Below are positions 5,112 to 28,534 of a stretch of 35,561 nt of DNA, in pieces (position 1 is the first letter of the stretch; every line of letters begins with the position of its first letter). A program made the translations under genes and the position numbers. The DNA is from Gammaproteobacteria bacterium (lineage in GTDB: Bacteria > Pseudomonadota > Gammaproteobacteria > Pseudomonadales > Azotimanducaceae): assembly GCA_009837185.1 (NCBI GenBank), contig VXUA01000038.1, forward strand, positions 1 to 35,561, given 5' to 3'. The notes under the pieces are model-generated. The model made no database searches, was not told where the DNA came from, and saw only the letters and a list, made by a program, of their open reading frames with translations.

Positions 5112-5124
5112 GTTTGAATTTAAA

Positions 5125-8107: not shown

Positions 8108-8237
8108 CGGTATTGATTCAAAACTGACCAAGTTAAGGTATTGCTAGATCGAAGTATGCCTAAACAAGAAAGAGGGTACGTGCAGTTGCCTGGTGCGGTT
8201 CCACTAACTGTTCTGCTTGCGAATGTGACGAATGAAT

Positions 8238-9668
8238 CTATGTCAGTTCCAACGCTTTCGATCCAATACGGATGACTAGGTCAATTGTTCGTTGCACGTC
8301 ATCCCAAGTAGTTGTATGATTCAGGATACACATCCTAAGCGAAAATTTTCCTTTCAATGTTGTCGACGAGACAAATGCTAACTCGTCCCAGAACACATGT
8401 GCCAACACTTTCCGATTGATCTCTTCCAAACTCTGCTCGTCGTGAGACCCATCGTTGACCCTAAAGCACACAATGCCGAGCGACACAGGTGTTATCAGTT
8501 CTAATGACGGCGCTGACTCAACGTACGTCGCGGCGCGGTGTGCTAAGTCCAACCCGCGTTGGATGGCAGCACGGAAAGGCGCTATGCCGAAAATCTGCAC
8601 GGACATCCAGATTTTTAACGCGCGAGGTGAGCGACTTAGTTGTAAGCCACGATCCGAGAAATTGGGGTGGTTTGCACCCCAAATGGTATCCTGCAATGCG
8701 TCATGACGGATAGCGAATGCGTTTTCAAGGTGCTGACCATTTTTTGCGATGAGTGCACCCGCTTCAAATGGTTGAAAGAACCATTTATGCGCGTCAACTC
8801 CGATGGAGTCCGCACGATTGATACCTGCAAGTTTCTCCTTACCGTCTTCGGTGAGTAAAGCGAATCCGCCGTAAGCGGCATCTACGTGCAACCAGATGTC
8901 TTCTTTTTCACAATAGTCAGCTAACTCTACGAGCGGGTCAATTGAACCGGTACTGGTTGTACCAGCGTTGGCGCACACGGCTACGACATGGAGACCATTG
9001 GCTTGGTCCTCCGAAACTTGCTGACGTAAAACTTCCATATCCATTTGAAAGCTGTCGTCGGTGTCTATCAGACGAATGTGTTCTCGCCGTACTCCAGCGA
9101 TCAACGCAGCCCTTATTAACGCGCTGTGGCTCTGATTGCTCATATAAACCACAGGTTGCACCGGGTGTCCAGCAGCTTCTCTTGCCGCCACTATCGCTTC
9201 CACGCTCGCGGCTGAACCTCCAGAAGTCAGCAAGCCACCGGCAGAGTCAGGATATCCAATCCAATTGCGGATCCAATCGATTACTACGAGTTCCAGATGA
9301 CTTGTACCACTAGAAACTAACCAAGAGCACGTGTTTATGTTGAAACCCGACGCAAGGAAGTCCGCTAAGACTCCTGGCCAAGTTGGCGAAGATGGTACGA
9401 ATCCAAAAAATCGAGGATGATCTAGTTGTGCCCCGTACGGCAACACGTCCCGCGCTACTTGTTCCAAAACTTCTTCCGCGAGTCGGCCGTTTTCAGGTGG
9501 AGGACCGTCGAATTCTCTTGCAAGGATTTCTCGAAACTCACCGTCCCAAGCCTTGGCGCTATCCATCGATCCAATTCGATCAATCAGAATATCCGCCGCT
9601 TTCGATGCGAGTTGTCGCATCTGCTGCGGAGTCATTTCTAGTCCAGAATGCTTGTCAGAATCTTCCAT
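8238..9668 (-). CDS. PLP-dependent amino-acid decarboxylase (aromatic-L-amino-acid decarboxylase / group II family)
   Basis: The 476-aa product has the length and order of group II decarboxylases. Visible motifs: HPRFFGFVPSSPTWPGVL near residue 85, LLTSGGSAASVEAIVAAR (phosphate-binding loop), HVDAAYGGFALL with the Asp that contacts the pyridine nitrogen, and SIGVDAHKWFFQPFEAG near residue 300, whose Lys forms the Schiff base with PLP. The family converts aromatic amino acids to amines and CO2 in the cytosol. The exact substrate (Tyr, Trp, DOPA or other) cannot be read from sequence. ATG 9668 is chosen over 9683 because AAAGGAG lies five bases upstream. It stands alone, with no transporter or amine-utilisation gene beside it. 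Confidence 0.9.
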   Translation of the reverse strand: MEDSDKHSGLEMTPQQMRQLASKAADILIDRIGSMDSAKAWDGEFREILAREFDGPPPENGRLAEEVLEQVARDVLPYGAQLDHPRFFGFVPSSPTWPGVLADFLASGFNINTCSWLVSSGTSHLELVVIDWIRNWIGYPDSAGGLLTSGGSAASVEAIVAAREAAGHPVQPVVYMSNQSHSALIRAALIAGVRREHIRLIDTDDSFQMDMEVLRQQVSEDQANGLHVVAVCANAGTTSTGSIDPLVELADYCEKEDIWLHVDAAYGGFALLTEDGKEKLAGINRADSIGVDAHKWFFQPFEAGALIAKNGQHLENAFAIRHDALQDTIWGANHPNFSDRGLQLSRSPRALKIWMSVQIFGIAPFRAAIQRGLDLAHRAATYVESAPSLELITPVSLGIVCFRVNDGSHDEQSLEEINRKVLAHVFWDELAFVSSTTLKGKFSLRMCILNHTTTWDDVQRTIDLVIRIGSKALELT

Positions 9669-10069
9669 GAACGCTCCTTTCAACGAAATATGCGGGAAAG
9701 CCCCACGTCTAAGAGTGATTCGAACCGAGTTGACATGTCTCTTACTATCAAGGCTTTTATTGGAGTGATGGTTTGCTCAGCCATGAGTCATTTCGTGCCC
9801 GAGTTCATATTCAAAATGATAATCCAAATATCTTGAACTACAAAGAACCTGTTTCGAACTTTGAATCTGCTCCGGTAGAGTCAACGACGTATTGAAAAAA
9901 GGTAACAAATTTAGCGTAGATAGTTGCAGGTTATTCGCCTGTAACTACCGTAAATCTTTGAATGAAAGACCAAATCTCTGAGCTGGGTTGTATGTCGTCA
10001 AATGAGGTTTAGCGTAGAAGAAATCTAATGCACAAATTTATGTTGACATCGATGACTAAATGCAAATGT
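9669..10069. other. Intergenic region with a hairpin and a short direct repeat
   Basis: No gene is supported in these 400 bases between two divergent genes. TAGTTGCAGG (9921-9930) pairs with CCTGTAACTA (9938-9947) with one G-T wobble and a 7-base loop; no T-run follows, so it is not a clear terminator. TTTAGCGTAGA occurs at 9910-9920 and again at 10008-10018. TTGACA starting at 10043 is a candidate -35 box for the ATPase gene downstream, but I see no convincing -10 box at standard spacing. Confidence 0.4.
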
Positions 10070-10105: not shown

Positions 10106-11248
10106 ATGATTGCAAGAAAATTTTGGCTAAGTAAGATTGCGCTAGCATGGAAGCATAGCTTGATCGTTTGGTTAGCCGGAGTCCGTCGTGTTGGTAAAAC
10201 AACTCTCGCGCAGATGTTGTCCTCACCGACGTCTCGATACTTGAACTGTGACCTTCCTTCAGTACAAAGAGAACTCGACGACCCCGAACTATTCTTAGAA
10301 TCTCTAGCTACAGGAATAATCGTCATGTTTGACGAAGTACACCGCTTGTCAGATCCATCCACTCTGCTGAAGCTAGCGGCTGATACTCGCCCGGATTTAC
10401 GAGTTTTAGCCACAGGTTCATCCACGTTAGTTGCAACAAAGAAGTTTCGCGACTCTTTAACGGGACGTAAGAGAGTCATTCATCTGACCCCCATTTTGTG
10501 GTCAGAGTGTATTTCGAATTTTGATGTTCAGGATCTCGACCATCGCCTCTTACGGGGTGGATTACCACAAGCCTTGCTCGCCAACGATAAGGATCCAGAA
10601 TTTTTCTCCGAATGGATAGACAGCTTGTATGCACGTGATATTCAAGAACTCTTTAGCATAAGAAATCGAGTTGGCTTTCTTTCGCTACTTCGACTGTTGT
10701 TACGACAAAGCGGGGGACAGCTTGACTACACTAAGCTAGCGCGACTTACGGAGCTCAGCCGACCGACCGTCAAGAGTTACATTGAGGCATTGCAAATCGC
10801 ATGTGTCGTTCACTTAGTTCCACCCCTCGGTGGTTCGTCAAGCTCAAGAGAAATTGTGAGTCGACCAAAGTGTTACTGTTTCGATAGCGGTTTTGTGACT
10901 CACGAGAAAGGATGGGACACTATTCGAGTGGAAGATCGCGGTATCCTTTGGGAACATCTAATTCTTGACTCGCTTCTATCACAATTCCGACGAGAACAAG
11001 TCTTTTATTGGAGAGACAAGTCCAACAAAGAAATTGATTTTGTTATTCGCACTCGTTCGAACGAATACCATACTATCGAATGTAAGGTAGATCCGGACTC
11101 CTTTTCCTCAAAATCGTTGGCTGAGTTCAGAACCTGGTATCCCGAGGGCAAAAATTTTGTCGTTAGTCCGCATACTTCTCGAAAGTACCATCGTAGTTTC
11201 GATAGTATGAAGGTGACTTTTTTGCGCGATATCAAAAACATTGTCTAA
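10106..11248 (+). CDS. AAA_14 / DUF4143 family ATPase
   Basis: The 380-aa product has the standard layout of this family. Residues about 24-35 hold the Walker A loop (GVRRVGKTTL), IIVMFDEVHRL is Walker B, and LATGSSTL is the sensor strand. A winged-helix-like segment follows (LARLTELSRPTVKSYIEAL). The C-terminal DUF4143 part has a PD-(D/E)xK-like pattern: WEHLILDSLL, then VFYWRDKSNKEIDFVI, then HTIECKVD. The family is very widespread and its cellular role is mostly undefined. The ATG lies three bases after the palindromic box; no strong Shine-Dalgarno is visible because the AT-rich palindrome occupies that space. No partner gene is adjacent, but the beginning of a second copy follows at 11551. 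Confidence 0.92.
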   Translation: MIARKFWLSKIALAWKHSLIVWLAGVRRVGKTTLAQMLSSPTSRYLNCDLPSVQRELDDPELFLESLATGIIVMFDEVHRLSDPSTLLKLAADTRPDLRVLATGSSTLVATKKFRDSLTGRKRVIHLTPILWSECISNFDVQDLDHRLLRGGLPQALLANDKDPEFFSEWIDSLYARDIQELFSIRNRVGFLSLLRLLLRQSGGQLDYTKLARLTELSRPTVKSYIEALQIACVVHLVPPLGGSSSSREIVSRPKCYCFDSGFVTHEKGWDTIRVEDRGILWEHLILDSLLSQFRREQVFYWRDKSNKEIDFVIRTRSNEYHTIECKVDPDSFSSKSLAEFRTWYPEGKNFVVSPHTSRKYHRSFDSMKVTFLRDIKNIV

Positions 11249-11514
11249 GAAACACTTGAATTTGCTTTTGGTCATGACGTTGCCAATGGGAAACGGCGCC
11301 AACCAAAAAAACGTACTCATAAACGAATGGAGACTATTGAAAATTTGTTGCTGTGTGAAGAATTCTTATAGTCTTCTGAGAGCACACTTGGCGTGGGACG
11401 ATCGTTCTTCAGTAACCTGTCAATGGAGTGGCGCGGTAGAGTATGGTTTGACCACGAATCCTAAAACAAACTGACCATCAAACTAAGGCTACCGAAACTA
11501 CTCAATTCAAACTA

Positions 11515-11547
11515 AATTTACATTTAGGCGTCTAAAAGTAAAATTTA
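11515..11547 (+). repeat. Palindromic 33-bp box, copy 2
   Basis: This stretch matches 10070-10102 with four to five differences by eye; the core reads ATTTAGGCGTCTAAAA, so the palindrome is slightly degraded. It is in the same orientation as copy 1. It is followed three bases later by TTG and codons resembling the start of the ATPase gene, so it is best read as the leader of a lost paralogue rather than as a terminal repeat of a cassette. Confidence 0.6.
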
Positions 11548-11550
11548 TTC

Positions 11551-11589
11551 TTGATCGAACGAAGGTTTTGGATCAAAGAGATTGGCCAC
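11551..11589 (+). pseudogene. 5' remnant of a second AAA_14/DUF4143 gene
   Basis: From TTG 11551 the frame reads LIERRFWIKEIG, against MIARKFWLSKIA for the intact gene at 10106. Start-codon spacing to the palindromic box is identical (three bases). Similarity fades after about 12 codons: no Walker A or later motif is found before the next gene at 11753. The rest of 11249-11752 shows nothing I can assign; the open frame at 11241-11474 has no recognisable features. Confidence 0.55.
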
Positions 11590-11752
11590 TTCTTTTTCAA
11601 GCAGAATCACACGGTTAATCTCGGTTTGCTACATTGTTCTCGCAACAGTCTAGGAGCGTTGAAGAATGTTGCCTTCGTTGTTCTAACGGTGATGGTGCAA
11701 GACGTCCGGTCAAAGGACCTGTACTTTTAACGACCTTTCAAGGAGAAATTGA

Positions 11753-12466
11753 ATGAATAAATGGATTGCAACCGCAGTACTTGTACTGTTTGCTACTTTA
11801 GGTTTGTGTCAAGACGAATATGTCGAAAAAGAGGGTTTATCGATTTCAGCGGGCGTCGAAACCTTTGAAATCGACACTGGAGAAACCCACTTTAACTTTC
11901 TTACTGAAGAAACAACTAAAGTATTCGAAAAAAATGTCACTGTGGGCATACGAGCTATGTTTTTCTCAAACAAAATATTCCGACAGTATCCATTGTATTT
12001 CGGCCTTGCTGGCAATGTGACTAACGTGAACGGGAGAAATGACTCAGCCTACACCATAATTGGCGAGTTAGGCTTTCAGACCAATATTCTGACGCCATTT
12101 GTAGCACTAGCCTATACCAATGATCTCGGTGAAGATGGCGACAATTTCAATGAACTCGACACCGATCACTTTTACATCGAAGACACAAACCTGGGACTGG
12201 GGCTGATGGTCAATAATCCACTTGAAGACACGTTTAGTGCAAAAGTTGTGTTCAACGTGCTCGGCGAAGCTGGAGATGCGAGCGCTACAAGTGTTGATTT
12301 GTATTTTCGTTTGCGAAGGTCTCGAGTAGATGATACTGCACCGGTTCTCTCAGTTGGATTTAAGCAAAAAAGCGAGACGACCGTTGAGCTACGGGACGGC
12401 ACTGAGCGCATTCGTCCTGACGGCAGAGGTGCAACGCTCTCAGTTGGCATGTCGATACCGTTCTAA
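11753..12466 (+). CDS. Small outer-membrane beta-barrel protein (YfaZ-like by general form)
   Basis: The 237-aa product starts at ATG 11753 with AAGGAG eight bases upstream. Residues 1-19 form a signal peptide ending LGLCQ. The rest is alternating short strands (LSISAGVETFEID, YPLYFGLAGNV, FVALAYTNDLG, TNLGLGLMVNN) and ends in GMSIPF; a terminal aromatic residue is the usual outer-membrane insertion signal. The pattern fits an 8- to 12-strand barrel. Assignment to YfaZ or another family is a guess from form; function is unknown. It appears to be a single-gene unit. Confidence 0.7.
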   Translation: MNKWIATAVLVLFATLGLCQDEYVEKEGLSISAGVETFEIDTGETHFNFLTEETTKVFEKNVTVGIRAMFFSNKIFRQYPLYFGLAGNVTNVNGRNDSAYTIIGELGFQTNILTPFVALAYTNDLGEDGDNFNELDTDHFYIEDTNLGLGLMVNNPLEDTFSAKVVFNVLGEAGDASATSVDLYFRLRRSRVDDTAPVLSVGFKQKSETTVELRDGTERIRPDGRGATLSVGMSIPF

Positions 12467-12681
12467 CGAGGCACTATGTCTATGTCGTCCGATTGCGACA
12501 TGAGAAGGATCCACAATCATACTAGAGGAACAATCGTCATTATTGAATGAGTGCGGTGCTCATTAGATCCTTCCACGCTGTTTAATTGAATTGCGGGAGT
12601 TCGTCCCGATTTGACGGTATCAGCTGCCGGTTCATTCACTATAGCAATAGCTGAAATTAAAAAGTTGGTATTTCGTGCTTA

Positions 12682-12875: not shown

Positions 12876-13901
12876 ATGTCACCAATACACATTAAATCGT
12901 TTTTTCGACGATTTCTACTTCCACTAATTTTTACTGGATATTTCGCTTCCGTCGTATCAGCTGAACTCAATTCGGTTCAGATAACTGATGAAACCCTAAA
13001 AGCGGTTGATTCCTGCTTAAAGTGGAAGGTCATCGGCTCGTGTACGTGGCTTCACTGTGATCTTTTTGGCTGTCGGGTTCGAGTTTCCCTAAAAATCGGC
13101 CATTATCGGCCTGATCTCGTGGTGTCGGTCTATCCAACCGTTGAGGCACATCCGTGGAAGGAAGTCAAGACAGTTGTTAAGACCGCGTTTGATCAAATCA
13201 AAAATACACTACCCGCAGACCTTCAAGCTGTCGAAGAAGGGAGCACCTTGGAACCAGGACACAGCTCGAAACATCTTTCGAGAAATCTGAGATTTTTTGA
13301 AAGCGATGTTATTGGGCACCCGTTGCCAGATTTACCAGCAAGTTACGCAAATTACTTTTGTACTTCCCAAACTGTTCCCCTTATTCCGTATTACAGTTCT
13401 TTACTAGACATCATCGCTTGGCGAAATCCAGAATTCGAGAGCCTCAATTTAATCAATTCACTTCCTGGTAGACGCGAAATTGGTCGATGGCCATGGTTCA
13501 CTTGGGGTTCAGTCTATCCTAGGTGCGGTTGGACCAATCAGCCAAGCCCTCCAAAAGCAGCCGCCGTCATTGCACAACGTGCCGCTGATGTCGCAATAAA
13601 CGGCGGATTATTTCGTGTAAGAACGCCGATAGGAAGGTCTGCAGATCATCAGAAGCGCTGGGGACCTCCGGCTCTCAGAGAGACGAACGGAAGTACTGGA
13701 AAATGGCAGATGATTCATCCCCGGATGCAGAGTTCGTGTCAAGCCTTCGGGTCCAACGATCTATTTTCAAAAGCCGGGTGGGGTGGTGGTAAAGTGGACA
13801 AGAAAAATGCTTATCTTTGGGTGTTGTGGCGTCCGTACAAGTGTTGTGCCAGACGCGGACAAGTCTTTCTCGGTTCAGATGACGTACACGGGTACCCATG
13901 A
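12876..13901 (+). CDS. TraU-like conjugative-element protein (PFL_4710 / TIGR03756 type)
   Basis: The 341-aa product has a signal peptide (residues 1-29, ending SVVSA) and a Cys-rich body: CLKWKVIGSCTWLHC, DLFGCRV, ANYFCTSQ, YPRCGW, SSCQAFG and KCCARRG. This arrangement, with the GSVYPRCGW and YLWVLWRPYKCC motifs, is that of TraU relatives encoded by integrating conjugative elements (PFL_4710 family, name from memory). These proteins are periplasmic and act in pilus or mating-pair assembly. The stop overlaps the next start by ATGA, so the genes are translationally coupled. An ATG five bases upstream is in another frame. It is the first gene of the block; the usual upstream partners (TraB, TraC, TraV types) are absent. 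Confidence 0.85.
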   Translation: MSPIHIKSFFRRFLLPLIFTGYFASVVSAELNSVQITDETLKAVDSCLKWKVIGSCTWLHCDLFGCRVRVSLKIGHYRPDLVVSVYPTVEAHPWKEVKTVVKTAFDQIKNTLPADLQAVEEGSTLEPGHSSKHLSRNLRFFESDVIGHPLPDLPASYANYFCTSQTVPLIPYYSSLLDIIAWRNPEFESLNLINSLPGRREIGRWPWFTWGSVYPRCGWTNQPSPPKAAAVIAQRAADVAINGGLFRVRTPIGRSADHQKRWGPPALRETNGSTGKWQMIHPRMQSSCQAFGSNDLFSKAGWGGGKVDKKNAYLWVLWRPYKCCARRGQVFLGSDDVHGYP

Positions 13902-15238
13902 ATCAGTTTCGAGTCGTAGTGTGTTTCCTCTGCGCGCTTTTCATGTCGATTTATGTATCCGCACCTCCAGCCCCACCTGAAGATAGCCTTTGGTACTACG
14001 AGATCGGCGGCGCTAAACCAATGTCTGCTCCCGCTAATCCAAGAGTCCACAGTACTACGATTGGAGGAAGTGCGAAATTAGGTCTCGGTTATAGCTGTTT
14101 GAAATTCGATCCTGTTACAGCCGTAAGTGATACGTTGAATCAAGTCAAAGATGGGACTGAAAACATGCTCAACGCTATGACTCAGGCCGCTACGGGCGCG
14201 ATAGCATCGTTACCTGCGATGATTCTACAACGGGCGAATCCAGGTTTGTATGACCTGTTTCAAAATGCACTCGTACGTGCTGAGCTAACCGTCGACCTCG
14301 CAACCAAGTCTTGTGAACAAATGGAAAGCGCGATCACAAATAACAAGAACCCTTACGAAGATCTAGTAGTGCTTTCGAAAGGAAATGATTGGAAAGTGCA
14401 AATGGGAGTAGGGGGCGGCAGCGTAGTTGCTGCTAAAGAAGCAGTTGCCCAGGCAAATGGAGCAAATGGTCTCCCATGGATCGGTGGAAGTGCTGGCGGT
14501 GATGATCAAGATCCCTTGGCATTGACTGAAGATGTCACAAGGGCTGGCTTCAATGTACAGCTGAATCGAGCTCCAAGTGCACAGGGCGCTGTAGCAACCG
14601 ATCCTGATCAACGTCTTACACTCGTTTGGAACGATCCAAGAGCAGCCGCAGAATGGTTAGTTAATGTGGTCGGTGAGCACAAAGTTTCCACTTGCGAAGG
14701 ATGCGAGAAATCAACCACTCCAGGGAACGGTCTCGGACCAAGTTTGGAACGAGAGGAAAGTAACCTAACGACAGTCTTGGAGTCATTGGTCTCGGGAAGT
14801 CAAGCTCCTACACTTACGAACTTAGCGAGAGTCTCGGCACCAGGGATTGCCATCACTCGTGATGTCATCAACAGCATCAACACGCTACCGGTTACGGAAC
14901 AGCAGATTGTCATCGATCGCTTGGTTGCGGAGATCGCGGTCGCACGTACCGTGGAGAAAGCTTTTCTCGCTCGTCGCTTAATGAAATCGGGCAGTTCCAT
15001 ACCCGAAGTTCAAGCAAATCCAGTTGCACGAGAGCATGTCGACCAAGTGGTCCGCGAACTTGATTCAGAAATCAATAGACTGGCATTTGAGGCACGGATA
15101 CGAAAAGATCTTGTGTCGAATACGGTAACCAATCTGCTCAAACGGCATGAGTCAAGGGAGAAAGCTTCGCTGACTGTTCCCGAACGTAATAGCCGTGATC
15201 CACACCCACTAATTGACGGGCGTGTCGAAAGCCCTTAA
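13898..15238 (+). CDS. Integrating conjugative element protein, PFL_4711 / TIGR03755 type (TraH-like)
   Basis: The 446-aa product starts with a signal peptide (residues 1-21, ending SIYVSA). Landmarks are SLWYYEIGGAKPMSAP, GGSAKLGLGYSCLKFDP, a glycine-rich middle (QMGVGGGSVVAAKE, LPWIGGSAGGDDQD) and a long helical C-terminus. This order, directly after a TraU-like gene, matches the PFL_4711 family of integrating conjugative elements, a periplasmic component of the mating apparatus; naming is from memory of the gene order. It overlaps the previous gene by four bases and the next by up to 26. No frame damage is seen. Confidence 0.82.
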   Translation: MNQFRVVVCFLCALFMSIYVSAPPAPPEDSLWYYEIGGAKPMSAPANPRVHSTTIGGSAKLGLGYSCLKFDPVTAVSDTLNQVKDGTENMLNAMTQAATGAIASLPAMILQRANPGLYDLFQNALVRAELTVDLATKSCEQMESAITNNKNPYEDLVVLSKGNDWKVQMGVGGGSVVAAKEAVAQANGANGLPWIGGSAGGDDQDPLALTEDVTRAGFNVQLNRAPSAQGAVATDPDQRLTLVWNDPRAAAEWLVNVVGEHKVSTCEGCEKSTTPGNGLGPSLEREESNLTTVLESLVSGSQAPTLTNLARVSAPGIAITRDVINSINTLPVTEQQIVIDRLVAEIAVARTVEKAFLARRLMKSGSSIPEVQANPVAREHVDQVVRELDSEINRLAFEARIRKDLVSNTVTNLLKRHESREKASLTVPERNSRDPHPLIDGRVESP

Positions 15239-15587
15239 GCAACGAGCGTTTACGAAGTTAGGTTTGCTGATTGCGCTATGTGCTGGCGTAGCAGTATCAA
15301 TTCTGTTGTCAACCACGGACGGCACAGCGATCGTATCTTGGCCGAATTGGTTCGCAACGAACCATTGGCTGACGACTGTTGTTAGGGTAGGGCTGTTTCT
15401 TGTCGCCATAGCTGTTTTTTACTCGATACACAAACAAAAGAAGCAAAGCTCTGAGCACAAAGGAATCCCAGCGAAACAAGCACAGCTACACGCTCGTGTT
15501 CGACAACTCTTGTTGTGGTTTGTCAGCATTGAACTGTTGTTTGGGCAAGCACTACTACCTCGCTTTTTGGAGTATCTCTTTTCATGA
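15213..15587 (+). CDS. Small membrane protein of the conjugation block
   Basis: The product has up to 124 residues with about three hydrophobic helices: LGLLIALCAGVAVSILLS, TTVVRVGLFLVAIAVFYS and LLLWFVSIELLFGQALLP. The start is uncertain: TTG 15213 or GTG 15222, both inside the end of the preceding gene. Its stop overlaps the next gene's ATG (ATGA). Small unassigned membrane proteins commonly sit at this place between the PFL_4711-like and TraG-like genes. Function is unknown; coupling suggests a role with TraG. Confidence 0.75.
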   Translation: MTGVSKALKQRAFTKLGLLIALCAGVAVSILLSTTDGTAIVSWPNWFATNHWLTTVVRVGLFLVAIAVFYSIHKQKKQSSEHKGIPAKQAQLHARVRQLLLWFVSIELLFGQALLPRFLEYLFS

Positions 15588-17134
15588 GTGTCGACAGCTA
15601 CCTTGAACTGTATTCGACCATGTTTGGCTGGATGTTTTATGGTGTTGTTTGGGACGTCCTCGTTGCTACGGGCATCGTATATCTACCCTTTCTCGGAATC
15701 GTTATCGATTATTGGCGAAAACCGGCGTCAGAAGCACCCCACAATGTGTCGAGCGGAGTGTCTTTGCGGAAGATGGAACATGAGCTACTACTCGCTCTTG
15801 TAGTTGTGATTTTCGCAGGACAACCTGTAGGTCTGACTCCGTTTATTGCGACTACGTTAAGTTACACACCGCCACCAACGGTCAATAATCCTAATCCGCC
15901 TACTGTAGACTTTTCCAACTCGCAAAGCACTTTCGGCACCACCGGGTTCGGTGATGCGGTCGATACTGTGGATGTTCCAATTTGGTGGTATGCAGTCATT
16001 GCATTTTCATCAGGGTTCAACCATGCGGTCGTCGAAGGACTACCGCGAGCGAGTGAAATTCGTCAATTTTCGCAACTATCCCGCCTTGCAACGATAGAAG
16101 ACCCAAGACTACGACAAGAAGTGTCAGAGTTTTATTCTGCTTGCTATGTTCCGGCGCGTTCTAAATTTCTCGCAGAACAACCTTCGTCCGCAGCAGTCGA
16201 CAATCTACTCAGACGTTTTGGACACGCCGATACAGACTGGATTGGCTCGCACGTTTATCGCGATATTCCAGGATACTATGATTCGTTGCGGGCGCGCACA
16301 CCTGTGAGTGGTTGGGCTTTCGTGCCCAGCCGAGACATCGAATACGACGTTGCCAATCCACCTCCAAACGGCCGACCTTATTGCGCTCAATGGTGGGGTC
16401 ACGCTCAACTTGGACTGCGCGCCAAACTTGTCAATGCTGCCGATACTAGCGCGCCCGGGTTTGCTACACTGTTCTATAACCTTGCTCCTGCGCTGGCAAC
16501 CGAACGACAGCTTGATCTAATTGCTCGTACAGTACTACTTCATACTCCAAGAAATTGGACCAGCAACGATTTGTCATCTGGAAATCAATCGACTTCAGGA
16601 ATACTCGGTCAAATCGAAGGTTTTGCAAAAGGCTTGTTGTATATTGTTGGTGCGTTTTCTACTGCGGCGGTATTCAGTGTGATCGTCACTGGAATTATCG
16701 CGGTTGCACCGATGATTCAAGCAATGATCCTCTTAGGGATCTATTCGCTGCTTCCGTTAATCGTCGTATTTTCTCGGTATTCATTCACGATCATGATTAC
16801 CGGAGCACTAGCGATATTTGGGGTAAAGTTCTGGACCGTGCTTTGGTATCTTGCACAGTGGATTGATCAAAACATGTTTACCGCGATGTATCCGGACACC
16901 AATCTCTTGTTTGAGGTATTAACAAACTCGGGGGAACACACCACCAAACGCGTGGTGCTCAATGTCATTACTTCATGTCTATACATTGGATTACCCTTGT
17001 TGTGGAGTTCGATGTTGGGTTGGACTGGGATTGCAATCGGACAATCTTTAGATGGCGCGACCTCGCCGTTTGGCCAACACACCCGCGGTGAGCCCCGACG
17101 TATCGGGTCCATTCGTTTGAAGAAGGCTAGTTGA
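15584..17134 (+). CDS. TraG N-terminal-like conjugal transfer membrane protein
   Basis: The 516-aa product has hydrophobic helices near the N-terminus (VWDVLVATGIVYLPFLGIVI, LLLALVVVIFAGQPVGL, IWWYAVIAFSSGFNHAVV), a periplasmic-looking middle domain (CYVPARSKF, IGSHVYRDIPGYYDSL, GRPYCAQWW) and a dense cluster of helices at residues about 350-500. This is the layout of the TraG N-terminal family, which acts at the inner membrane in mating-pair formation and stabilisation. Ends are tightly packed: ATGA overlap upstream, TTGA overlap downstream. Length is typical for integrating-element versions, which lack the long F-plasmid C-terminus. Confidence 0.85.
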   Translation: MSVDSYLELYSTMFGWMFYGVVWDVLVATGIVYLPFLGIVIDYWRKPASEAPHNVSSGVSLRKMEHELLLALVVVIFAGQPVGLTPFIATTLSYTPPPTVNNPNPPTVDFSNSQSTFGTTGFGDAVDTVDVPIWWYAVIAFSSGFNHAVVEGLPRASEIRQFSQLSRLATIEDPRLRQEVSEFYSACYVPARSKFLAEQPSSAAVDNLLRRFGHADTDWIGSHVYRDIPGYYDSLRARTPVSGWAFVPSRDIEYDVANPPPNGRPYCAQWWGHAQLGLRAKLVNAADTSAPGFATLFYNLAPALATERQLDLIARTVLLHTPRNWTSNDLSSGNQSTSGILGQIEGFAKGLLYIVGAFSTAAVFSVIVTGIIAVAPMIQAMILLGIYSLLPLIVVFSRYSFTIMITGALAIFGVKFWTVLWYLAQWIDQNMFTAMYPDTNLLFEVLTNSGEHTTKRVVLNVITSCLYIGLPLLWSSMLGWTGIAIGQSLDGATSPFGQHTRGEPRRIGSIRLKKAS

Positions 17135-17997
17135 AGCGTCTGGAATATCAGCTCAAACAACTCGCTTCCCACAATCGAGACGGGAGTTTCGCAACCCAGG
17201 CAGCTCGAAAAAAGCATTTAAAACGGGTTGTGAGTGAACTACGTATGTTGGGATATAACCAGATGCATGTTCGTTCCTTAAAACTAAAGCACGTTCATGC
17301 CCTCATCAATTATTGGCAGAGAACTGGTCACTCAATCGGTACGCAAAAGAACGTATTAGCCCATTTACGATGGTGGGCGCGAAAGATCGGAAAGGACGAA
17401 ATGATTCCAAAGTCCAACAATGAACTATTGGTCGGTAAACGAAGTTTAATTCCATTGGAATCTAAAGCTCAGTATCTCAAGAGAACCCAGCTCAAGCAGA
17501 TTTCTAACGCGTACATACGTTTAAGCATTGAACTACAGCAAGATTTTGGGCTTCGTCAGGAGGAGAGTTTTAAGTTCCGACCTTCATATGCTGATCGAGG
17601 ATCGTACATCGAACTCAAAGGTTCATGGACGAAGGGCGGTCGGAAGCGATCAATTCCAATAATCTCTTTTGAACAACGCGATCTCATCGACCGAATCCAC
17701 GCAATCGCTGGTCAAAGATCGTTAATACCGGCAGAATATTCATTGAAAACGTGGAGGAGTAAATATGTACGATTGTTAAGCAATCTTGGGCTAAAAAAAT
17801 TACACGGACTAAGACATGGATATGCGCAGCGACGCTATCGCGATCTTACGGGTTTCGAGTCAGTATTCGCAGGAGGCCCGAAGAGAATAGCACTAGATTC
17901 AGAGCAACAAGTGATCGACGTACAAGCACGACTTCAAGTGAGTCAGGAACTTGGACACAATCGAATAGAGATAACGGATGTATATTTGGGGCGATAG
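17131..17997 (+). CDS. Integrase-domain (tyrosine recombinase-like) protein at end of conjugation block
   Basis: The 288-aa product has an N-terminal helical DNA-binding half (residues 1-95) and a catalytic-type half. Conserved tyrosine-recombinase residues are visible: Arg in DFGLRQEES, His-x-x-Arg in LHGLRHGYAQRR, a late His in SQELGHNRIEITDVY, and the Tyr at the end of that motif. It resembles the integrase-domain proteins (PF12834/PF12835 type) found beside TraG in Pseudomonas-type elements, rather than the main element integrase. The start is TTG within TTGA overlapping the TraG-like stop, preceded by GAAGG. Translational coupling of a recombinase to transfer genes is notable. No attachment site is visible next to it. 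Confidence 0.82.
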   Translation: MKRLEYQLKQLASHNRDGSFATQAARKKHLKRVVSELRMLGYNQMHVRSLKLKHVHALINYWQRTGHSIGTQKNVLAHLRWWARKIGKDEMIPKSNNELLVGKRSLIPLESKAQYLKRTQLKQISNAYIRLSIELQQDFGLRQEESFKFRPSYADRGSYIELKGSWTKGGRKRSIPIISFEQRDLIDRIHAIAGQRSLIPAEYSLKTWRSKYVRLLSNLGLKKLHGLRHGYAQRRYRDLTGFESVFAGGPKRIALDSEQQVIDVQARLQVSQELGHNRIEITDVYLGR

Positions 17998-18025
17998 AAC
18001 TCTTATGTATCGGCAAGCATTGGTC

Positions 18026-18051
18026 CTCCACTGAAGTTGGAGTTACTTTTT
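18026..18051 (+). terminator. Probable Rho-independent terminator of the conjugation block
   Basis: CTCCA (18026-18030) pairs with TGGAG (18038-18042) around a 7-base loop and is followed by TTACTTTTT. It lies about 30 bases after the integrase-like stop. The stem is short, so confidence is moderate. Confidence 0.45.
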
Positions 18052-18126
18052 CCAATCTGTAGCATACCCTGATCAACTAGCCTAAATACTTGATCTCTAT
18101 TTTTTCGCACTCGATCGTAAGTAAAT

Positions 18127-19167
18127 GTGGACCGTAAGTTAAACCGCGCACTCGCAGATTCATTCGAAGGCATAGACGTGCAACAACGTGTAGACCGTCT
18201 TGCTGACTGGCAAACCAGAGCTAAGAACGCTACTTCAACCGATTACGATCATGCTGACACGGTAAACGACTTCTACGATCTTTCGACGGAGTTAGCTAGA
18301 TGGGGCTGGCACGAGTCATTTCACTTCGCCCCAATGAAAAAAGGAGAGTCGCTGAACGATGCGATCCTACGCCATGAGGGATCGATGATTGAAAAACTGC
18401 AAATCGATTCCACGAAGACGGTACTAGATGTTGGTTGTGGGATTGGTGGCCCAATGCGGCACGTAGCGCGTACGACTGGCGCACACGTAGTAGGTATTAA
18501 CATCAACGAGCATCAGATCAAAGTCGGGCAAGAGTTGAACCAAGCAGCTGAACTCGATCATTTGACAGACTTTGTTCATTGTGATTTCATGGATATGAGC
18601 GTGCTCGAATCAAATTCCTTTGATGCAGCCTATGCGATCGAGTCTACTGCACATGCTTCAGACAAAATTAGCGCTTACGAACAGATTTTTCGTGTGCTAA
18701 AACCCAGTGCTTATTTTTGGGGTCAAGAGACTATATTGACTGGTGAGTTTCGAGCTGAGCGTACTGAACACCAAGAAATTAAAGATCGACTAATGGGCAC
18801 CATGGCACTCTATGAGATTGGTTCGATCGCTGAGGTTAAAGCTGCACTCGAGACAGCAGGGTTTAAAGTTGACGAGTGTGACGATCTTGGTAGAGCTAGT
18901 CCCGAGTCTGTTCCATGGTACATGCCACTCACCGGCAAAGGTAAGTTCTTTCATGCATCTAGAACTAGTCCTCTACGACGCGCGTATACCTTGATGACTC
19001 TCCGAATAGTAGAAGCTCTTCGTCTGGTTCCTAAAGGGACAGCAGCCGCAACCAAATTAACCGCCGCTGTGGCTGATGCGAGTATTGAGGGTGGTAGAGC
19101 AGGGATCTTTTCAGTACTTGGGTGTTTTCTCGCACAAAAATCAGCAACGTTTGACGTACAGTCATAG
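18127..19167 (+). CDS. Sterol 24-C-methyltransferase homologue (SMT/ERG6 family)
   Basis: The 346-aa product aligns by eye along its whole length with ERG6/SMT proteins, which transfer methyl from S-adenosylmethionine to C-24 of the sterol side chain. YDLSTELARWGWHESFHF (about residues 50-67) matches the aromatic YEWGW-type sterol-binding region. VLDVGCGIGGPMRHVART (about 99-116) is the SAM-binding motif. YAIESTAHASDK and YEQIFRVLKP match the internal YAIEATCHAP/YKEIYRVLKPG block. The C-terminal domain (VPWYMPLTGKG, EGGRAGIFSVLGCFLAQK) matches Sterol_MT_C. The start is GTG with no clear Shine-Dalgarno. No squalene epoxidase, oxidosqualene cyclase or other sterol gene is in the window, so it may act on host or dietary sterol, or its pathway lies elsewhere. 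A related small-molecule substrate cannot be excluded. Confidence 0.9.
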   Translation: MDRKLNRALADSFEGIDVQQRVDRLADWQTRAKNATSTDYDHADTVNDFYDLSTELARWGWHESFHFAPMKKGESLNDAILRHEGSMIEKLQIDSTKTVLDVGCGIGGPMRHVARTTGAHVVGININEHQIKVGQELNQAAELDHLTDFVHCDFMDMSVLESNSFDAAYAIESTAHASDKISAYEQIFRVLKPSAYFWGQETILTGEFRAERTEHQEIKDRLMGTMALYEIGSIAEVKAALETAGFKVDECDDLGRASPESVPWYMPLTGKGKFFHASRTSPLRRAYTLMTLRIVEALRLVPKGTAAATKLTAAVADASIEGGRAGIFSVLGCFLAQKSATFDVQS

Positions 19168-19246
19168 ACAATGACGATAATAGTCGATGAAATCCTAGTC
19201 GTTCAGTAGAAACGACCAAAATACGTAATAAATGAGTTGACACTAA

Positions 19247-19699
19247 ATGAAGAAAATGACCTCTCTATTCGCTATTGGAATTGCTGCATGGTTAGCCGTA
19301 ATTGCTATATGGGTTTTCGTTCCGAAAACAGACTTTGCAAAACTAGAGGGCGAAATGTTCGACAACGTGAGATATGACGGACTCACGATCGAGTGTATTC
19401 AAACCGATGAGATCGTCACGCAAAAGTACCAAATTGGAAAGTATTCTTTTGAGGACACGGAGATCGTTGCATCTGGTGAGAACGAACATATCGTATTTGA
19501 ATGCACTGCTACTGATCCCATCGCTAGGAAAACCTACCCTGTAAATATTGAAGTCACCACGGGTGCGGATCTCTATTTGTATTGGAGCACGTGCAACGTT
19601 GACGATCTAATCATGAAGGCTTCGGTCGTATTCTATAACTCGAAAAACGACATTGTCCTTGAGGAAACACTCGAGTGCGTGAACGAGTTTTCGATCTAG
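19247..19699 (+). CDS. Small membrane-anchored protein of unknown function
   Basis: The 150-aa product has one hydrophobic helix (residues about 5-26, ending WVFVP), then an acidic beta-rich domain with four cysteines (LTIECIQT, IVFECTAT, WSTCNVDD, ETLECVNE). The helix is probably an uncleaved anchor, leaving a periplasmic domain in which disulfides could form. No family is recognised. It starts 79 bases after the methyltransferase stop on the same strand, so co-transcription is possible. The Shine-Dalgarno is weak. Confidence 0.65.
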   Translation: MKKMTSLFAIGIAAWLAVIAIWVFVPKTDFAKLEGEMFDNVRYDGLTIECIQTDEIVTQKYQIGKYSFEDTEIVASGENEHIVFECTATDPIARKTYPVNIEVTTGADLYLYWSTCNVDDLIMKASVVFYNSKNDIVLEETLECVNEFSI

Positions 19700-19784
19700 T
19701 GGTTACAGCACTTCTTCGTTAAGTATCAGGGCGTCGACAGTGTCTCTGCGTAGATTGGAGATTTTCTTAATCAAAAAAATTTTA

Positions 19785-21740
19785 TTACTGCGAAGGAGCT
19801 CTATATCGTCGGAATCGTCCGTCCAATATCATCAATTGAAAATCTTTTTGCACTTGCTCTCTTTCTTCTTCAGACAAGTTTTGAAGATTGTTTAATCTCG
19901 CAATTGATGTCGACGATTCCGAACCACGTCTTCCAGTCTCCGAGTTGTAGTCTGCAGGTAGAAACCGCTTTACGTGTGACACTTGTTCCTTTGTCAAAAC
20001 ATTTCTTCCAACATTAAACCGGATAAGGTCCATGGCAGCGCGGTACTTTGCTTCAGTTGACGGGAGCTCATTCATCCTAGTTGCCAAAGACTGTGGATCT
20101 GTGTAAGCCCATTCATTGATGACCAAATTGAAGTACACATCTTGATTCTTCTCTGGTAATTGTTCGCCCAATGCTAAAGCTCGGTCCGTTTCCTCGTTAC
20201 TTACTAGTGCTTTACCTACAGCTACTAAACTGAAAATCTGGGTGTATCCTTCTCGCACCTGTGCCAGCATACTCATAGCTCTTTCGATATCGGTCCGAGC
20301 TACTTCTGCGATTACGGTGGCTTCCAAACCGAGACCCATCGAGTCGAAGGGTTAATCGAGTGCGGTTTGTAGTGCTAACTCGGGATTTTCTGTGGCAAGA
20401 CTACGAAGTATGGTGTTCAGAACTTCGCGTTGCAATGAAATACCAGAGAATTCGTGGGTTAATGCCCAATTCAACGCTTCAAGCGCATTTTTATCAGCCC
20501 AGTAAATAGCCAATTCCATCGTTAGTTCAAACTTCAAAAACTCGTCCGATATCTCAGCTAAGAACTGCGCTGAATCTTCTGGTGCTGTTCGGATAAGCGT
20601 ACGAATGGCGTGTTCCTCGGCACGAGCACGAAGGTTTTCAGGAATGAGATCAAACTTTTCGAACACGTCTTTGGGATCATAGTTAGCCCAAGCGGTTACA
20701 AAGTGTTCTAGCATTTGACGGCGTGCTCTTGGTGATTCAATTGAAGAAATTGATTCAAACGCGTCTTTAGGATCGATACTTGCCCATGCACTAGCGATTG
20801 TTTCCATAGCAAGTTCCCTTAATTCGCCTTCAAAATCTAGTACTTGCTGCAATGTTGTTTGGGGATCGGCAAGTAGAGCTTGCTGAAGTACCGATCCTAG
20901 AACTGCCTTCTTCAGAATGGAATCCTTTAACGATTGGTCGATTTCTGCAATCGCCTCCAAACCTGCTTGATCCACCCATGTGTGGGCAAGTCGTATCAAT
21001 GACGCGGTCTGAGCCACATTGGAATGATCGTCCGCGACTAATTTTTGCCATTCGTCCGCTACAGACTGAGCGAAAATACCTTGTTCAAATTCGCTTAAGT
21101 CAATCTGAAGTTCAAGAGCTAGAGCTTCTTTCTCGTCAATCGAAAGGGTGTGTTGAGACTCAAGTATTCCCCGCATTGCAGCATATTTATCTGATTGTTC
21201 GAGAGTCTTTGCGTGCGCTATTGCTTCTTCCAAATCTATTTGAGACCACTCGCCGAAAACGCTTGAGATCAATGAATTGTGGCGGTCGTCAGACAAGTTT
21301 TCAATTGTGAATAGTGCTAATTTAGGATCGAGAGTTGTGAACCGTCGAATGATTGCAGTTTGAGTGGTGTGTTGTAAAGATTCTGATCCTATATTCTTAG
21401 ATTGTTCGAATAACTGAGTCAGCAAATTCGTGTCGGTGGAGAGCAACAAACTATACAGAGCTTCGGTTCGTTCGAAAGCACTTGGCGCTAGACTTAAGAA
21501 TTTGAGAAGACCTAAGTCCGAATTACGATTACGAGAACTAGTCGAACTAGGGTCTTTGAGTTCAGCCTGCGAACGATTTGTATCCGCGACTGCTGTTTTA
21601 GGCGAGAAACTCCCATTGGTGGATTCACTCTTCATCGTGTTGAGACCAAAAAGGACACCAAGCGTTGTTGCGATGCCCAAGACACACCCGGCTAGGACTA
21701 GTACGACGGTACGAATTTGATTTCTTTTTATTGAACTCAT
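19785..21740 (-). pseudogene. Membrane-anchored helical-repeat protein; broken by one in-frame stop
   Basis: Frames 20352-21740 (462 aa) and 19785-20339 (184 aa) share a reading frame and are separated by TAA at 20352-20354. Together they give about 650 residues collinear with the intact neighbour at 21853-23757. At the break this copy reads ALD-stop-PFD, where the neighbour has ARDQPIV, so a CAA to TAA change is the simplest cause. The N-terminus has one membrane helix (TVVLVLAGCVLGIATTLGVL) and a Ser/Asn-rich linker. The rest is tandem helical repeats of about 35 residues marked by WA--DP--A motifs (WASIDPKDAFESI, WANYDPKDVFEKF, WADKNALEALNWAL). If made, the protein stops before the last three or four repeats. 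Confidence 0.82.
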
Positions 21741-21852
21741 CTCTAGCTCTCTGATTTCACTTTAGGGTGAATACGTGATTGACTATAGTTTGACACCAGT
21801 TTGAATATCGACTGTAAATCTTGGTTCAAACACTGCTGTAGCTTTATGCCTT

Positions 21853-23757
21853 TCATTCTTCCTTCGCTTTTTCTCGTTGTACCGGATTGATAAAGATTAG
21901 CTGTACTTGTTCATCAAACCATTCGCTGGACATCTGTCTCATTTGTCTGCTATTACCATACGGATCGACGTATCCCTCAGGCAAAAAACTTCCAACATGC
22001 TCCATCTGCGCCGAGCTAAGTGCCTTTGTTTCGTGGTTGTATCGTACCAGTCCTTTCGCTGCTTGATCCTTCAATTGATCAGAGGGTAGCTCGTCCAACT
22101 GTTCAAACAGTGTCTCTGGGTTGGTCATTGCCCATTGATACATTAACGAACCGTTGTAGTTTCGACGGCGATTTTCACCCAATCTTTGTCCTAGTGCGAG
22201 AGCGCGATCATACTGGCCATCACGTATCATTGCACGCCCGACCTCGCTATACGCATGAGTGACAGTTAGACCTTCTCTTCGTATGTCTGAAAGCATCGCG
22301 AGAGCTTGGTCGATGTCTGTTTCGACTAAGTGCTGAATCACCGTAACTTCCATACCTCGGTAGAGTGCCCCACGTAAGACGATAGGTTGGTCGCGTGCAG
22401 TTTTGAAGGCGAGTTCAGGATCATTAATCGCGAGACTGGCCAACACTATCATCAGTGTTTCTGCCTGCTGAACATCAGTCGTGAATGTCTCATTAAGTAC
22501 CCAATCCAAAGCTGCGTGAGGATCCTGTTCGGACCAATCTTTAGCAATCTCTTTGGCAAGCTTGATTCTGAGATTGTCGTCTTCTAATTCGGACAAAAAT
22601 GACACCGCCTCGTCTGGAGATACGCGCGCGATCGCCAACATTGCTTCTTCCTTAGCCATCGCACGGAGGTGTTCCGGCACTAACGCTAATGCTTCAAGCA
22701 GGACATTTGGATCGTTTTCGGCCCAAGCTGTTAATACACTTTCCTGGAGTAATTTGAGAGTCTTACCACTCTCCATGGTTGCAATTTCAGTTAAAGCCGC
22801 CTGGGGGTCAATTCGAGCCCAGACTTCAGCGATAGTCTGGAGAGCAAGTTCCCGAGAATCGCTTGTAAGCTGTAAAGCTTCTATCAAAGCTGCACGTGGG
22901 TCGTCTTGGGCGATTCGGTGCAACGCGGACATTATGACAGCGTCGCGAACGACTGTATCCGCGAGCGATTCGCTGATCTGATCAATTACCGAAATTCCTT
23001 CCTGTAAGAGCCACTCAGATGCCACTTGTATGAGAAATTCTGTTTGTACGAGATTTGGTTGACTGTCGAAAACGATGTGACTCCAAGCTAACGCGGGATC
23101 TTCGAAGGCTGAAAACGCAACGGCTTTAGCAAGATAGCTTACGGCGTATATTTCTTGATTTAAATCCTTCGCTATGTCCAACATCAAGTCATCAGAATAT
23201 TTGTGTCTCGCGCGCAAAATCCCTCGAACTGCTGCCTGTTTCAACGTTGGATCGAGTGCCAAAGCGAGATTCTTTGCATCTTCTAAGTCAGAGAGTGAAA
23301 CTTCCTCGAAAATTAGCGTTATTAGCTCTCGCTCTCGACCTGTTGGTAAAGTCTTTACCTGTTCGAGCGCGATTTGTGGATTCAAGGAAGTCAATTTTTG
23401 AATTATCGCACTCTCAATCGAATGACGTAGGGAAGGGGAGTCTATCTCTTTGGACTGATCCAAGTACTCAATTAGACTGGGTTCTGTAGCATTTATTAAC
23501 AGTCCGAATAGTGCTGCTTTTCTCTCAACGTCCGTCTCAAACTGAAAAATATCTTCAAGGTCCTGGACAGCAACACTTGTACCCGTCGTCCCAGACTTGT
23601 TGTCAAGAATATTCGTAGGGATACCTGCGCGCCAATCTTTAGCACTATCACCTTTGAAGAAAGGTAAAAGGAAAACGACCGCAAGGGTCGCAGCACTCCC
23701 CACAATAGCACCTCCCATCAATAAGGAGATGGTTTTAGTTTGGTTTGATTTAAGCAT
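21853..23757 (-). CDS. Membrane-anchored helical-repeat (TPR/HEAT-like) protein
   Basis: The 634-aa product starts at ATG 23757, with GGAG about nine bases upstream; the longer TTG start at 23772 includes that ribosome site and is rejected. Residues about 10-31 are one membrane helix (LLMGGAIVGSAATLAVVFLL), followed by an acidic linker. The bulk is about 15 helical repeats of roughly 35 residues with a recurring WA--DP-AAL signature (WARIDPQAALTEIA, WAENDPNVLLEALA, WSEQDPHAALDWVL). Repeats of this form act as protein-binding scaffolds; the periplasmic side is expected from the anchor. Partner and function are unknown. It lies upstream of its broken tandem paralogue in the same orientation, 112 bases apart, so both probably arose by duplication. 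Confidence 0.8.
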   Translation of the reverse strand: MLKSNQTKTISLLMGGAIVGSAATLAVVFLLPFFKGDSAKDWRAGIPTNILDNKSGTTGTSVAVQDLEDIFQFETDVERKAALFGLLINATEPSLIEYLDQSKEIDSPSLRHSIESAIIQKLTSLNPQIALEQVKTLPTGRERELITLIFEEVSLSDLEDAKNLALALDPTLKQAAVRGILRARHKYSDDLMLDIAKDLNQEIYAVSYLAKAVAFSAFEDPALAWSHIVFDSQPNLVQTEFLIQVASEWLLQEGISVIDQISESLADTVVRDAVIMSALHRIAQDDPRAALIEALQLTSDSRELALQTIAEVWARIDPQAALTEIATMESGKTLKLLQESVLTAWAENDPNVLLEALALVPEHLRAMAKEEAMLAIARVSPDEAVSFLSELEDDNLRIKLAKEIAKDWSEQDPHAALDWVLNETFTTDVQQAETLMIVLASLAINDPELAFKTARDQPIVLRGALYRGMEVTVIQHLVETDIDQALAMLSDIRREGLTVTHAYSEVGRAMIRDGQYDRALALGQRLGENRRRNYNGSLMYQWAMTNPETLFEQLDELPSDQLKDQAAKGLVRYNHETKALSSAQMEHVGSFLPEGYVDPYGNSRQMRQMSSEWFDEQVQLIFINPVQREKAKEE

Positions 23758-23826
23758 TGCTATGATCTCCAATAGGAAATACGAACACGAAACACGAACC
23801 CAAAAATCTGATTCTATGCAAAAATA

Positions 23827-24582: not shown

Positions 24583-25508
24583 GTGGACACCCTAGACAAT
24601 TAATTTGGGTACTCCGATGTGTGGGGCGTTCTCGGTCCCCTGCGATCAAGCATTCCACTTATCGAACCTCCTGGTTGAAACGCGTTTCATAGTCGATCGG
24701 CGAGATGTGTCCCAACGCCGAGTGTCGTCGATGCGGATTGTAAAAACCCTCTACTTAATCAAAGATCTTCGCTTGAGCTTGCGTACGATCCTGAAAGCAC
24801 CGTCGCGGTTGCTGGTGGATTAATTCCGTTTCCAACGTCGCGAAGAAACTCTCGGCCATCGCATTGTCATAACAATCACCCACCGATCCCATCGACACCT
24901 GAACGTTCGCTCGCTGACAGACTTCCAGGAAGTGCTGGGAAGTATTTTGTGAGCCGTGATCAGAGTGGTGCACGACTTGAGTGGGTTGTCGTCGCGTCAA
25001 TGCCATCTGTAAAGCCCGCACCATTAAGTCCGAGTCTTGTCTGGCAGCCATGGACCAACCCACGATCCGTCGGGCAAACACATCCAACACAATCGCCAAG
25101 TACAACACGCCTTCCACAGTCGGAACGTAGGTGGCATCAGCAACCCACAACTCATTCGGACTGGATGCACAAAATTGACGCTGGACTAAATCCTGCGCTG
25201 GGATCGCCGCGGAGGACCGCTTCGTAAGGCTCTTATTGCGCCGCCGACTCACCCCTTGCAGACCCTGTTCGGACATTAATCGAGTAATACGATGCCGACT
25301 CGCAACAATGCCGCGAGCGCGCAGCTCGGCTTGCACGCGCGGAGCTCCATAAATACCTCGAGACTCCTCATGAATCGACACAATGTGGGGGGCTAAAGCC
25401 GCATCCGCACGTTGCCATCGAGATCGTGAAGGACGACGGAGCCATGCGTAGTATCCACTGCGGGAGACCTTCAAAACACTTGCCATGTCCATCGAAAACC
25501 ATAAAATT
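24583..25508 (-). mobile_element. IS3-family element copy A, 5'-truncated (OrfB part only)
   Basis: The right terminal region starts at GTGGACACCCTAG (24583), identical to the end of copy B at 27867, and the shared sequence AATTAATTTGGGTAC follows. No OrfA is present, and the OrfB frame begins at about 25507, next to unrelated AT-rich sequence, so the left end is missing. Copies A and B are very similar by eye over their common part. The left boundary is accurate only to about 10-15 bases. Confidence 0.75.
24659..25507 (-). pseudogene. IS3-family transposase OrfB (copy A), in-frame stop near C-terminus
   Basis: The frame 24755-25492 encodes a typical OrfB: LKVSRSGYYAWLRRPSRSRW, SRGIYGAPRVQAELRARGI, then the rve catalytic core with DATYVPTVEGVLYLAI (first Asp), HHSDHGSQ (second Asp) and NAMAESFFATLETELI (Glu). 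It ends AKIFD-stop, but the same frame continues VEGFYNPHRRHSALGHISP to a TAA at 24659. Relatives have Tyr at the stop position, and copy B has IFDY, so one base change (TAT/TAC to TAA) is the cause. The DDE residues are intact, but the last 31 residues are lost. The N-terminus is also short, since OrfA and the frameshift region are absent. Confidence 0.85.
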
Positions 25509-28366: not shown

Positions 28367-28386
28367 GGGACTGTCATAAATTTCGT

Positions 28387-28412
28387 GTATGGGAAGATGT
28401 CCCATACTTTTT
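28387..28412 (+). terminator. Hairpin with T-run
   Basis: GTATGGGA (28387-28394) pairs perfectly with TCCCATAC (28400-28407) around AGATG and is followed directly by TTTTT. This is a textbook Rho-independent shape on the + strand. It lies in sequence of unknown origin beginning GGGACTGTCATAAATTT at 28367, which resembles an insertion-sequence end (IS256-like at best, low certainty). Confidence 0.5.
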
Positions 28413-28534
28413 CGAAAGGAAGAAAAATTTGACTTTGAGATGCTCATGGTATCCGTGATCTGCCATCGGGTGTTCCAACCTCTGGACGGATTAAATCGGC
28501 CGTCAAAAGGATGGTTTACCAAAGTTTAGAAATG

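Follow-up and report, generated by a model that had tools for sequence, protein, structure and literature searches.

Sterol methyltransferase homologues lacking Tyr81 in Azotimanducaceae genomes with and without a sterol cyclase

A gene in a gammaproteobacterial draft genome encodes a member of a clade of bacterial sterol methyltransferase (SMT) homologues, here called clade B, in which Region I is altered and which, to judge from low dN/dS values, is kept under purifying selection. Clade B proteins are present in all 10 of the SMT carriers examined in which no cyclase was found, and this clade is the new part of our analysis; a search of the open-licence literature found no report of a Tyr81-less, cyclase-independent SMT class. 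We put the chances at about even that clade B enzymes act on sterols or related lipids that their own cell need not make. The gene lies in a stretch of 35,561 nucleotides (the window), which is contig C55 of the 2.77-Mb, 95% complete draft genome G000 and whose features are collected in Table 1.

An ORF check of the window gives a 346-aa open frame with a GTG start at exactly 18127-19167 (+). Its product has a SAM methyltransferase domain (Methyltransf_11, E 2e-17) followed by Sterol_MT_C (E 2.3e-9, 37.6 bits vs. a cut-off of 21.7), the domain order of SMTs, with both Pfam matches above the curated cut-off. For comparison we used four reference sequences, which we take to be yeast Erg6, Arabidopsis SMT1 and SMT2, and the gamma-tocopherol methyltransferase VTE4. 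Against these references the window protein scores 234 bits with SMT1 (42% identity over 298 residues), 190 bits with both Erg6 (34% identity) and SMT2, and 72 bits with VTE4, and on these scores we reject an identity as a gamma-tocopherol methyltransferase. The protein shares with the eukaryotic 24-SMTs (Erg6, SMT1, SMT2) the two-domain architecture, 34-42% identity over ~300 residues, the SAM motif (DVGCGIGGP), the YAIE block (YAIESTAHA, residue 169) and the PWY block (VPWYMPLTG, residue 262), and differs from them in having Ala/Arg for Tyr81/Glu82 and in falling into a separate clade (100/100). The preliminary description, which had assigned the protein to the SMT family by its YAIE-HA block and Sterol_MT_C domain, was right in these respects, and by its domains and motifs the protein is a genuine SMT-family member, a kind already known. 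The sterol-binding aromatic motif that it also listed survives only in part: residues 57-62 read ARWGWH where Erg6 has Y81EYGWG86 (motif and numbering as printed in PMC6997595), so that Trp85 is retained, Tyr83 is replaced by Trp, Tyr81 by Ala and Glu82 by Arg, and the 24-SMT (ERG6) signature Y81EYGWG86 is absent. The Region I aromatics are described as required for 24-SMT catalysis (PMC6997595), and Region I as directing product outcome (PMC5711494). We therefore stop short of classing the window protein as an established C-24 methyltransferase, and such activity cannot be assumed for a sequence without Tyr81. A structure model built with 26 family members reaches a mean pLDDT of 89.2. Searches of the PDB by sequence (8 matches, E up to 1e-10) and by fold (best 50 of 1966 matches) returned small-molecule and other methyltransferases; since no named SMT is among the matches listed, they are uninformative on the substrate.

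Two kinds of SMT are separated by the trees. The first tree has 38 rows and the second 36, the latter omitting the G057 protein (deviant C-terminus) and VTE4 (long branch), both of which are in the first; a frame-broken copy of the window-type gene in G104 is absent from both. Both trees carry long-branch warnings, one of which concerns the point where the window-type group meets a pair from G097. Clade B comprises 23 rows, is supported at 100/100 in the second tree, and includes the window protein and the SMT of contig C70 of the same genome. It lies apart from clade A (8 rows), clade A2 (2 rows) and the three eukaryotic reference SMTs. The third SMT of G000, which sits beside the cyclase on contig C69, belongs to clade A, with which the G057 protein also groups (first tree only). 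Tyr81 is retained in 13/13 rows outside clade B and 0/23 inside, Glu82 in 13/13 outside and 4/23 inside, and Trp85 in all 36. As the preliminary description had expected, the window protein falls with SMTs and not with the tocopherol methyltransferase, and it groups with bacterial copies from genomes of the same family, not inside the three eukaryotic sequences.

That description had reported no other sterol gene, which is true of the window; the genome, however, holds two further SMTs, on C69 and C70, and a sterol cluster, and the genome-wide search for squalene epoxidase and cyclase that it had proposed found an epoxidase-cyclase fusion on C70/C69, though a seemingly interrupted one. Besides the fusion gene, C70 carries genes for a P450, an ERG4/ERG24-type reductase, a Rieske protein, an SDR, an alpha/beta hydrolase, an SMT and a GPP34-P450 fusion, while C69 carries the cyclase end and its SMT. 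The Rieske protein is best matched by SdmA (413 bits) and the SDR by SdmB (300 bits), against strict NCBIfam cut-offs of 600, and the P450 may be a sterol 14-demethylase, as its gene position suggests. C69 and C70 both break off within the cyclase, each at a copy of one 23-bp repeat. The draft contains 8 exact copies of this repeat plus 2 with two mismatches, at least 7 of these 10 lying within ~50 bases of a contig end. When set against the intact gene of G101 (1161 aa) the two cyclase pieces overlap by 8 bp, which fits an insertion with target duplication, with misassembly also possible; the G000 cyclase gene appears to be interrupted. The cyclase forms a long single frame in G101, G007, G040, G063 and G081; in G100 it occupies two frames. 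Alignment shows the epoxidase-cyclase fusion in G101, G100, G040, G063 and G081; such a fusion is not novel, having been described as MsbE (PMC7074536).

Across relatives, 14 of the 100 family genomes searched gave a Sterol_MT_C match, including 6/6 of the genus; in the class 1 of 369 did, namely the source genome itself, and of 14 control genomes none. When 19 SMT-bearing genomes were searched for the cyclase domain, it was present in nine (G000, G007, G040, G057, G063, G081, G092, G100 and G101) and not found in ten (G006, G033, G060, G062, G094, G096, G097, G102, G103 and G104). Completeness is 95-100% for seven of these ten, G102-G104 being the three without a figure, and G062 consists of one 4.3-Mb contig. 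Tyr81-type SMTs (clades A and A2) are present in 9/9 cyclase-bearing genomes (G057 being assigned from the first tree alone) and in 1/10 cyclase-less genomes (G033), giving a Fisher p of 0.0001, and clade B SMTs in 7/9 and 10/10, respectively (p 0.21); both tests ignore relatedness, and the genomes are related, so that the counts are non-independent. Since clade B also occurs in 7/9 cyclase-bearing genomes, having it does not in itself go with loss of the cyclase. Among 11 genomes tested, ERG4/ERG24 is missing in the same four (G097, G102, G103 and G104). When the fused enzyme was searched against the proteins of six genomes, it matched over its full length in G000, G100 and G101 alone; outside these three there were weak matches (24-27%) to the epoxidase half.

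The close relatives G101 and G104 allow the cluster position to be compared directly. The cluster in G101 is flanked by genes for an ATPase and an alpha/beta hydrolase, ~11.6 kb apart on one contig. Their G104 counterparts lie ~2.2 kb apart, also on one contig, with a 395-aa ORF and the remnant of a 173-aa protein between them; a clade B SMT, itself intact, comes next. The two ATPases show a 92.5% match over the full length, in a family that has other copies. At the cluster position the G102 contig ends and G103 has other genes, and the absence of the cluster from these two rests mainly on whole-genome searches. Selection appears to have maintained both clade B genes: dN/dS is ~0.05-0.12 in 9/10 pairs of the window-type SMT, the G000-G100 pair giving ~0.3 with few changes, and ~0.05-0.13 in 15/15 pairs of the C70-type SMT, including pairs among cyclase-less genomes. 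Several dS values are near saturation, and taken together the ratios indicate that clade B is under purifying selection. The window-type gene of G104 is broken over frames, likely through a sequence error, because one neighbouring 640-650-aa gene in this MAG is broken as well.

A GPP34-P450 fusion gene recurs near clade B. It adjoins the C70-type SMT in G000 and G100-G104 and one of the two SMTs in G097. Stretches were fetched for five of the six cyclase-less larger genomes (G006, G033, G060, G062 and G094), and in 5/5 the neighbourhood of the clade B SMT includes both a GPP34-P450 fusion and an AcrB-type pump, with a HlyD-type protein recognised in 4/5 (not in G062). The pump of G103 differs, with 22% identity to that of G062, and the fetched stretches around the clade B loci of the cyclase-bearing G040, G063 and G081 contain no GPP34-P450 gene. 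These neighbours may form a tailoring and transport module around the clade B SMT. No sterol importer was identified, and a literature search for the GPP34-P450 fusion found no related report.

The preliminary description had also placed the SMT directly after a terminator of a conjugative-element fragment and proposed that it had been transferred with the element. The element genes are indeed there (TraU/TIGR03756, TIGR03755, TraG_N and an integrase-like protein) and end 130 bp upstream of the SMT. A terminator-like site is present at 18026-18042 (+), but two such sites were found in 17000-20000 against a mean of 2.3 in shuffles, no more than expected by chance. The proposal that the gene is recent conjugative cargo from a eukaryote or another bacterium, for which this closeness speaks, is largely refuted and we regard it as very improbable. 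Only five element genes are present, and each of the six genomes that we compared has them in the same place, upstream of the SMT, at distances of 134 bp in G101 and G104, ~1.2 kb in G100, ~2.0 kb in G102 and ~5.8 kb in G103. GC content is alike in the SMT gene (0.476), the remnant (0.479) and the window (0.456), no tRNA was found in the window, and the protein groups with bacterial copies of its own family's genomes. In G100-G102 and G104 the remnant proteins show 83-96% identity, apart from 71-85% for the small one; in G103 the figures are 75-90% and, for the small one, 52%. The same further genes lie beyond the remnant in G101, G102 and G104, the three of five relatives whose fetched stretch reaches there, those of G100 and G103 ending inside the remnant. 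We conclude from this conservation that the conjugation genes are an old remnant fixed in the lineage, with no sign of recent SMT transfer.

Other features of the window are recorded here for completeness. Downstream of the SMT, the frames 19785-20339 (-) and 20352-21740 (-) are two parts of one ~650-aa protein that is a single frame in the relatives (L011-L015); it and its paralogue at 21853-23772 (-) are 33-36% alike, with WA-x-x-DP-type repeats visible by eye. Transposase genes or fragments of the IS110 and integrase-core (rve) types lie at 34187-35432 (+), 24755-25492 (-), 27968-28522 (-) and 33255-33767 (-). Large related membrane proteins of up to 1151 aa, also present in relatives, are encoded at 376-8131 (-) and 29639-33094 (-); they have no ABC or peptidase Pfam match and one weak Golvesin_C match. 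A PLP-dependent decarboxylase gene (8238-9683, -) has L-2,4-diaminobutyrate decarboxylase as its nearest model, far below the cut-off.

Table 1 Features of the window and of the sterol cluster contigs of the same genome.
Feature	Position	Strand	Evidence and remarks
SMT-family methyltransferase, clade B, protein P0001	18127..19167	+	Methyltransf_11 + Sterol_MT_C, tree, model, orthologues in 5 named MAGs (nearest: Pseudomonadales MAG, 97% identical)
TraU / TIGR03756 conjugative-element protein (remnant)	12876..13901	+	Pfam 4.8e-43; NCBIfam 8.4e-81
TIGR03755 integrating conjugative element protein (remnant)	13898..15238	+	NCBIfam 1.4e-130
Small remnant protein, 124 aa	15213..15587	+	Conserved in relatives; no Pfam/NCBIfam match
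TraG_N conjugation protein (remnant)	15584..17134	+	Pfam 1.4e-62
Integrase-like protein, Phage_int_SAM_2 + Integrase_1, remnant end	17131..17997	+	Pfam
150-aa protein downstream of SMT	19247..19699	+	Beside SMT in 4/5 relatives, not L012; no Pfam match
Two paralogues of ~640-650 aa, first split over two frames in window	19785..23772	-	Beside SMT in 5/5 relatives; no Pfam match
GPP34 domain fused to cytochrome P450, beside C70-type SMT	L009 (G000:C70) 10293-12479	-	Related fusions near clade B SMTs elsewhere
Squalene epoxidase-cyclase fusion, split	L009 (G000:C70) 40-2997 and L008 (G000:C69) 4266-4865	-	IS-like 23-bp repeat; intact in G101

What might clade B enzymes do? In the reading that we favour, the enzyme would alkylate a sterol with SAM, the side chain being the most likely site, and this sterol need not come from the cyclase of its own cell. 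The Tyr81-keeping SMTs of clades A and A2 would go with de novo synthesis in the lineage, and the clade B copies would tailor sterols from a host, neighbouring bacteria or the surroundings; in G000, with its apparently interrupted cyclase, the window enzyme may rely on outside sterols too. The sterol substrate, the methylated position and sterol uptake from outside are inferred, and several lines of evidence speak for the reading as a whole: clade B is present in 10/10 cyclase-less genomes and the Tyr81-type in 1/10, which also lends weight to the earlier suggestion of an SMT acting on another organism's sterols; the flanks of the missing cluster in G104 stand ~2 kb apart beside an intact clade B SMT; dN/dS is low, also between cyclase-less genomes; the SAM, YAIE and PWY blocks and Sterol_MT_C are conserved; the cyclase-less G062 is a single contig; and the 5/5 cyclase-less larger genomes fetched have both the GPP34-P450 fusion and the AcrB-type pump close by. 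A published Chlamydiae SMT (PMC10070321) provides a precedent. Against this reading count the loss of Tyr81 in 23/23 clade B rows, the occurrence of clade B in 7/9 cyclase-bearing genomes, the failure to identify a sterol importer, the cyclase-less G033 with its Tyr81-type SMT, and the squalene synthase-type gene present in 11/11 genomes tested, four of them cyclase-less, which would make a home-made lipid substrate possible. No activity is known for any identifiable clade B sequence. The stronger claim, that clade B, often neighboured by a GPP34-P450 fusion and in larger genomes also by an RND pump, is a distinct Tyr81-less methyltransferase class that tailors the sterols of others and outlives the loss of de novo synthesis, we consider tentative and on balance doubtful.

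Clade B could instead supply C-24 (or C-28) SMTs of the cell's own sterol pathway, adding a methylation step that follows the cluster SMT, so that three SMTs could make 24-ethyl or 24-propyl sterols. Three SMTs are present in each of G000, G100 and G101, all of which have the sterol cluster, and sequential methylation by bacterial SMTs has been published (PMC10070321); yet purifying selection also preserves clade B in genomes that gave no cyclase match, the cyclases of G000 and G100 look broken, and Tyr81 is lost, so that we judge this explanation rather unlikely, if a serious one. The squalene synthase-type gene mentioned above points to a further alternative, methylation of squalene or another linear isoprenoid. 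The alga Botryococcus has SMT-like triterpene methyltransferases that act on squalene, and the likeness is drawn at the level of this enzyme family. The squalene synthase model TIGR01559 is the best one for the G000 copy (E 3.4e-33), though at 115 bits vs. a cut-off of 287; that gene is on contig C47, not beside the clade B SMTs, and clade B retains the Sterol_MT_C domain, which makes a squalene substrate improbable in our view. Less probable still is methylation at another sterol position such as C-4, as carried out by the nematode 4-SMT, likewise an SMT homologue with an altered Region I. Region I of that enzyme is without the signature aromatic residues (PMC6997595) and is altered in 23/23 clade B rows, but that enzyme shares no more than 21% identity with Erg6 (PMC6997595) vs. 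34% for the window protein (to the Erg6 reference), which is moreover 42% identical to the SMT1 reference and keeps two Region I aromatic positions.

Several published systems resemble the one described here. Brown et al. 2023 (PMC10070321) report in vitro activity for bacterial SMTs, including one from a Chlamydiae MAG that has no further sterol homologue; by their description, these SMTs also come from uncultured, partly sponge-associated bacteria. With its epoxidase-cyclase fusion, P450, reductase, SDR, Rieske protein and SMT, the C69/C70 cluster has the gene set of the msb cluster, which is described from a gammaproteobacterium living in symbiosis with the sponge Melophlus (PMC7074536). 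The window SMT differs in lying outside the cluster, on another contig and in another clade from the cyclase-linked SMT. Steroid gene clusters with ERG6 nearby are also described in Ircinia symbionts by Kelly et al. 2022 (PMC9531527). Likeness to these published clusters suggests that the source bacterium may be sponge-associated.

Steranes with an alkylated side chain are taken as eukaryotic fossils, and some as sponge fossils in particular, an interpretation that the known bacterial SMTs already make less simple (PMC10070321). The existence of close relatives with and without the cluster makes the question of clade B function testable. If clade B enzymes do act on outside sterols, symbionts and their free-living relatives could re-alkylate host or dietary sterols with their own chemistry, cyclase searches would overlook such bacteria, and bacteria without a sterol pathway could alter the sterol fingerprint of other organisms.
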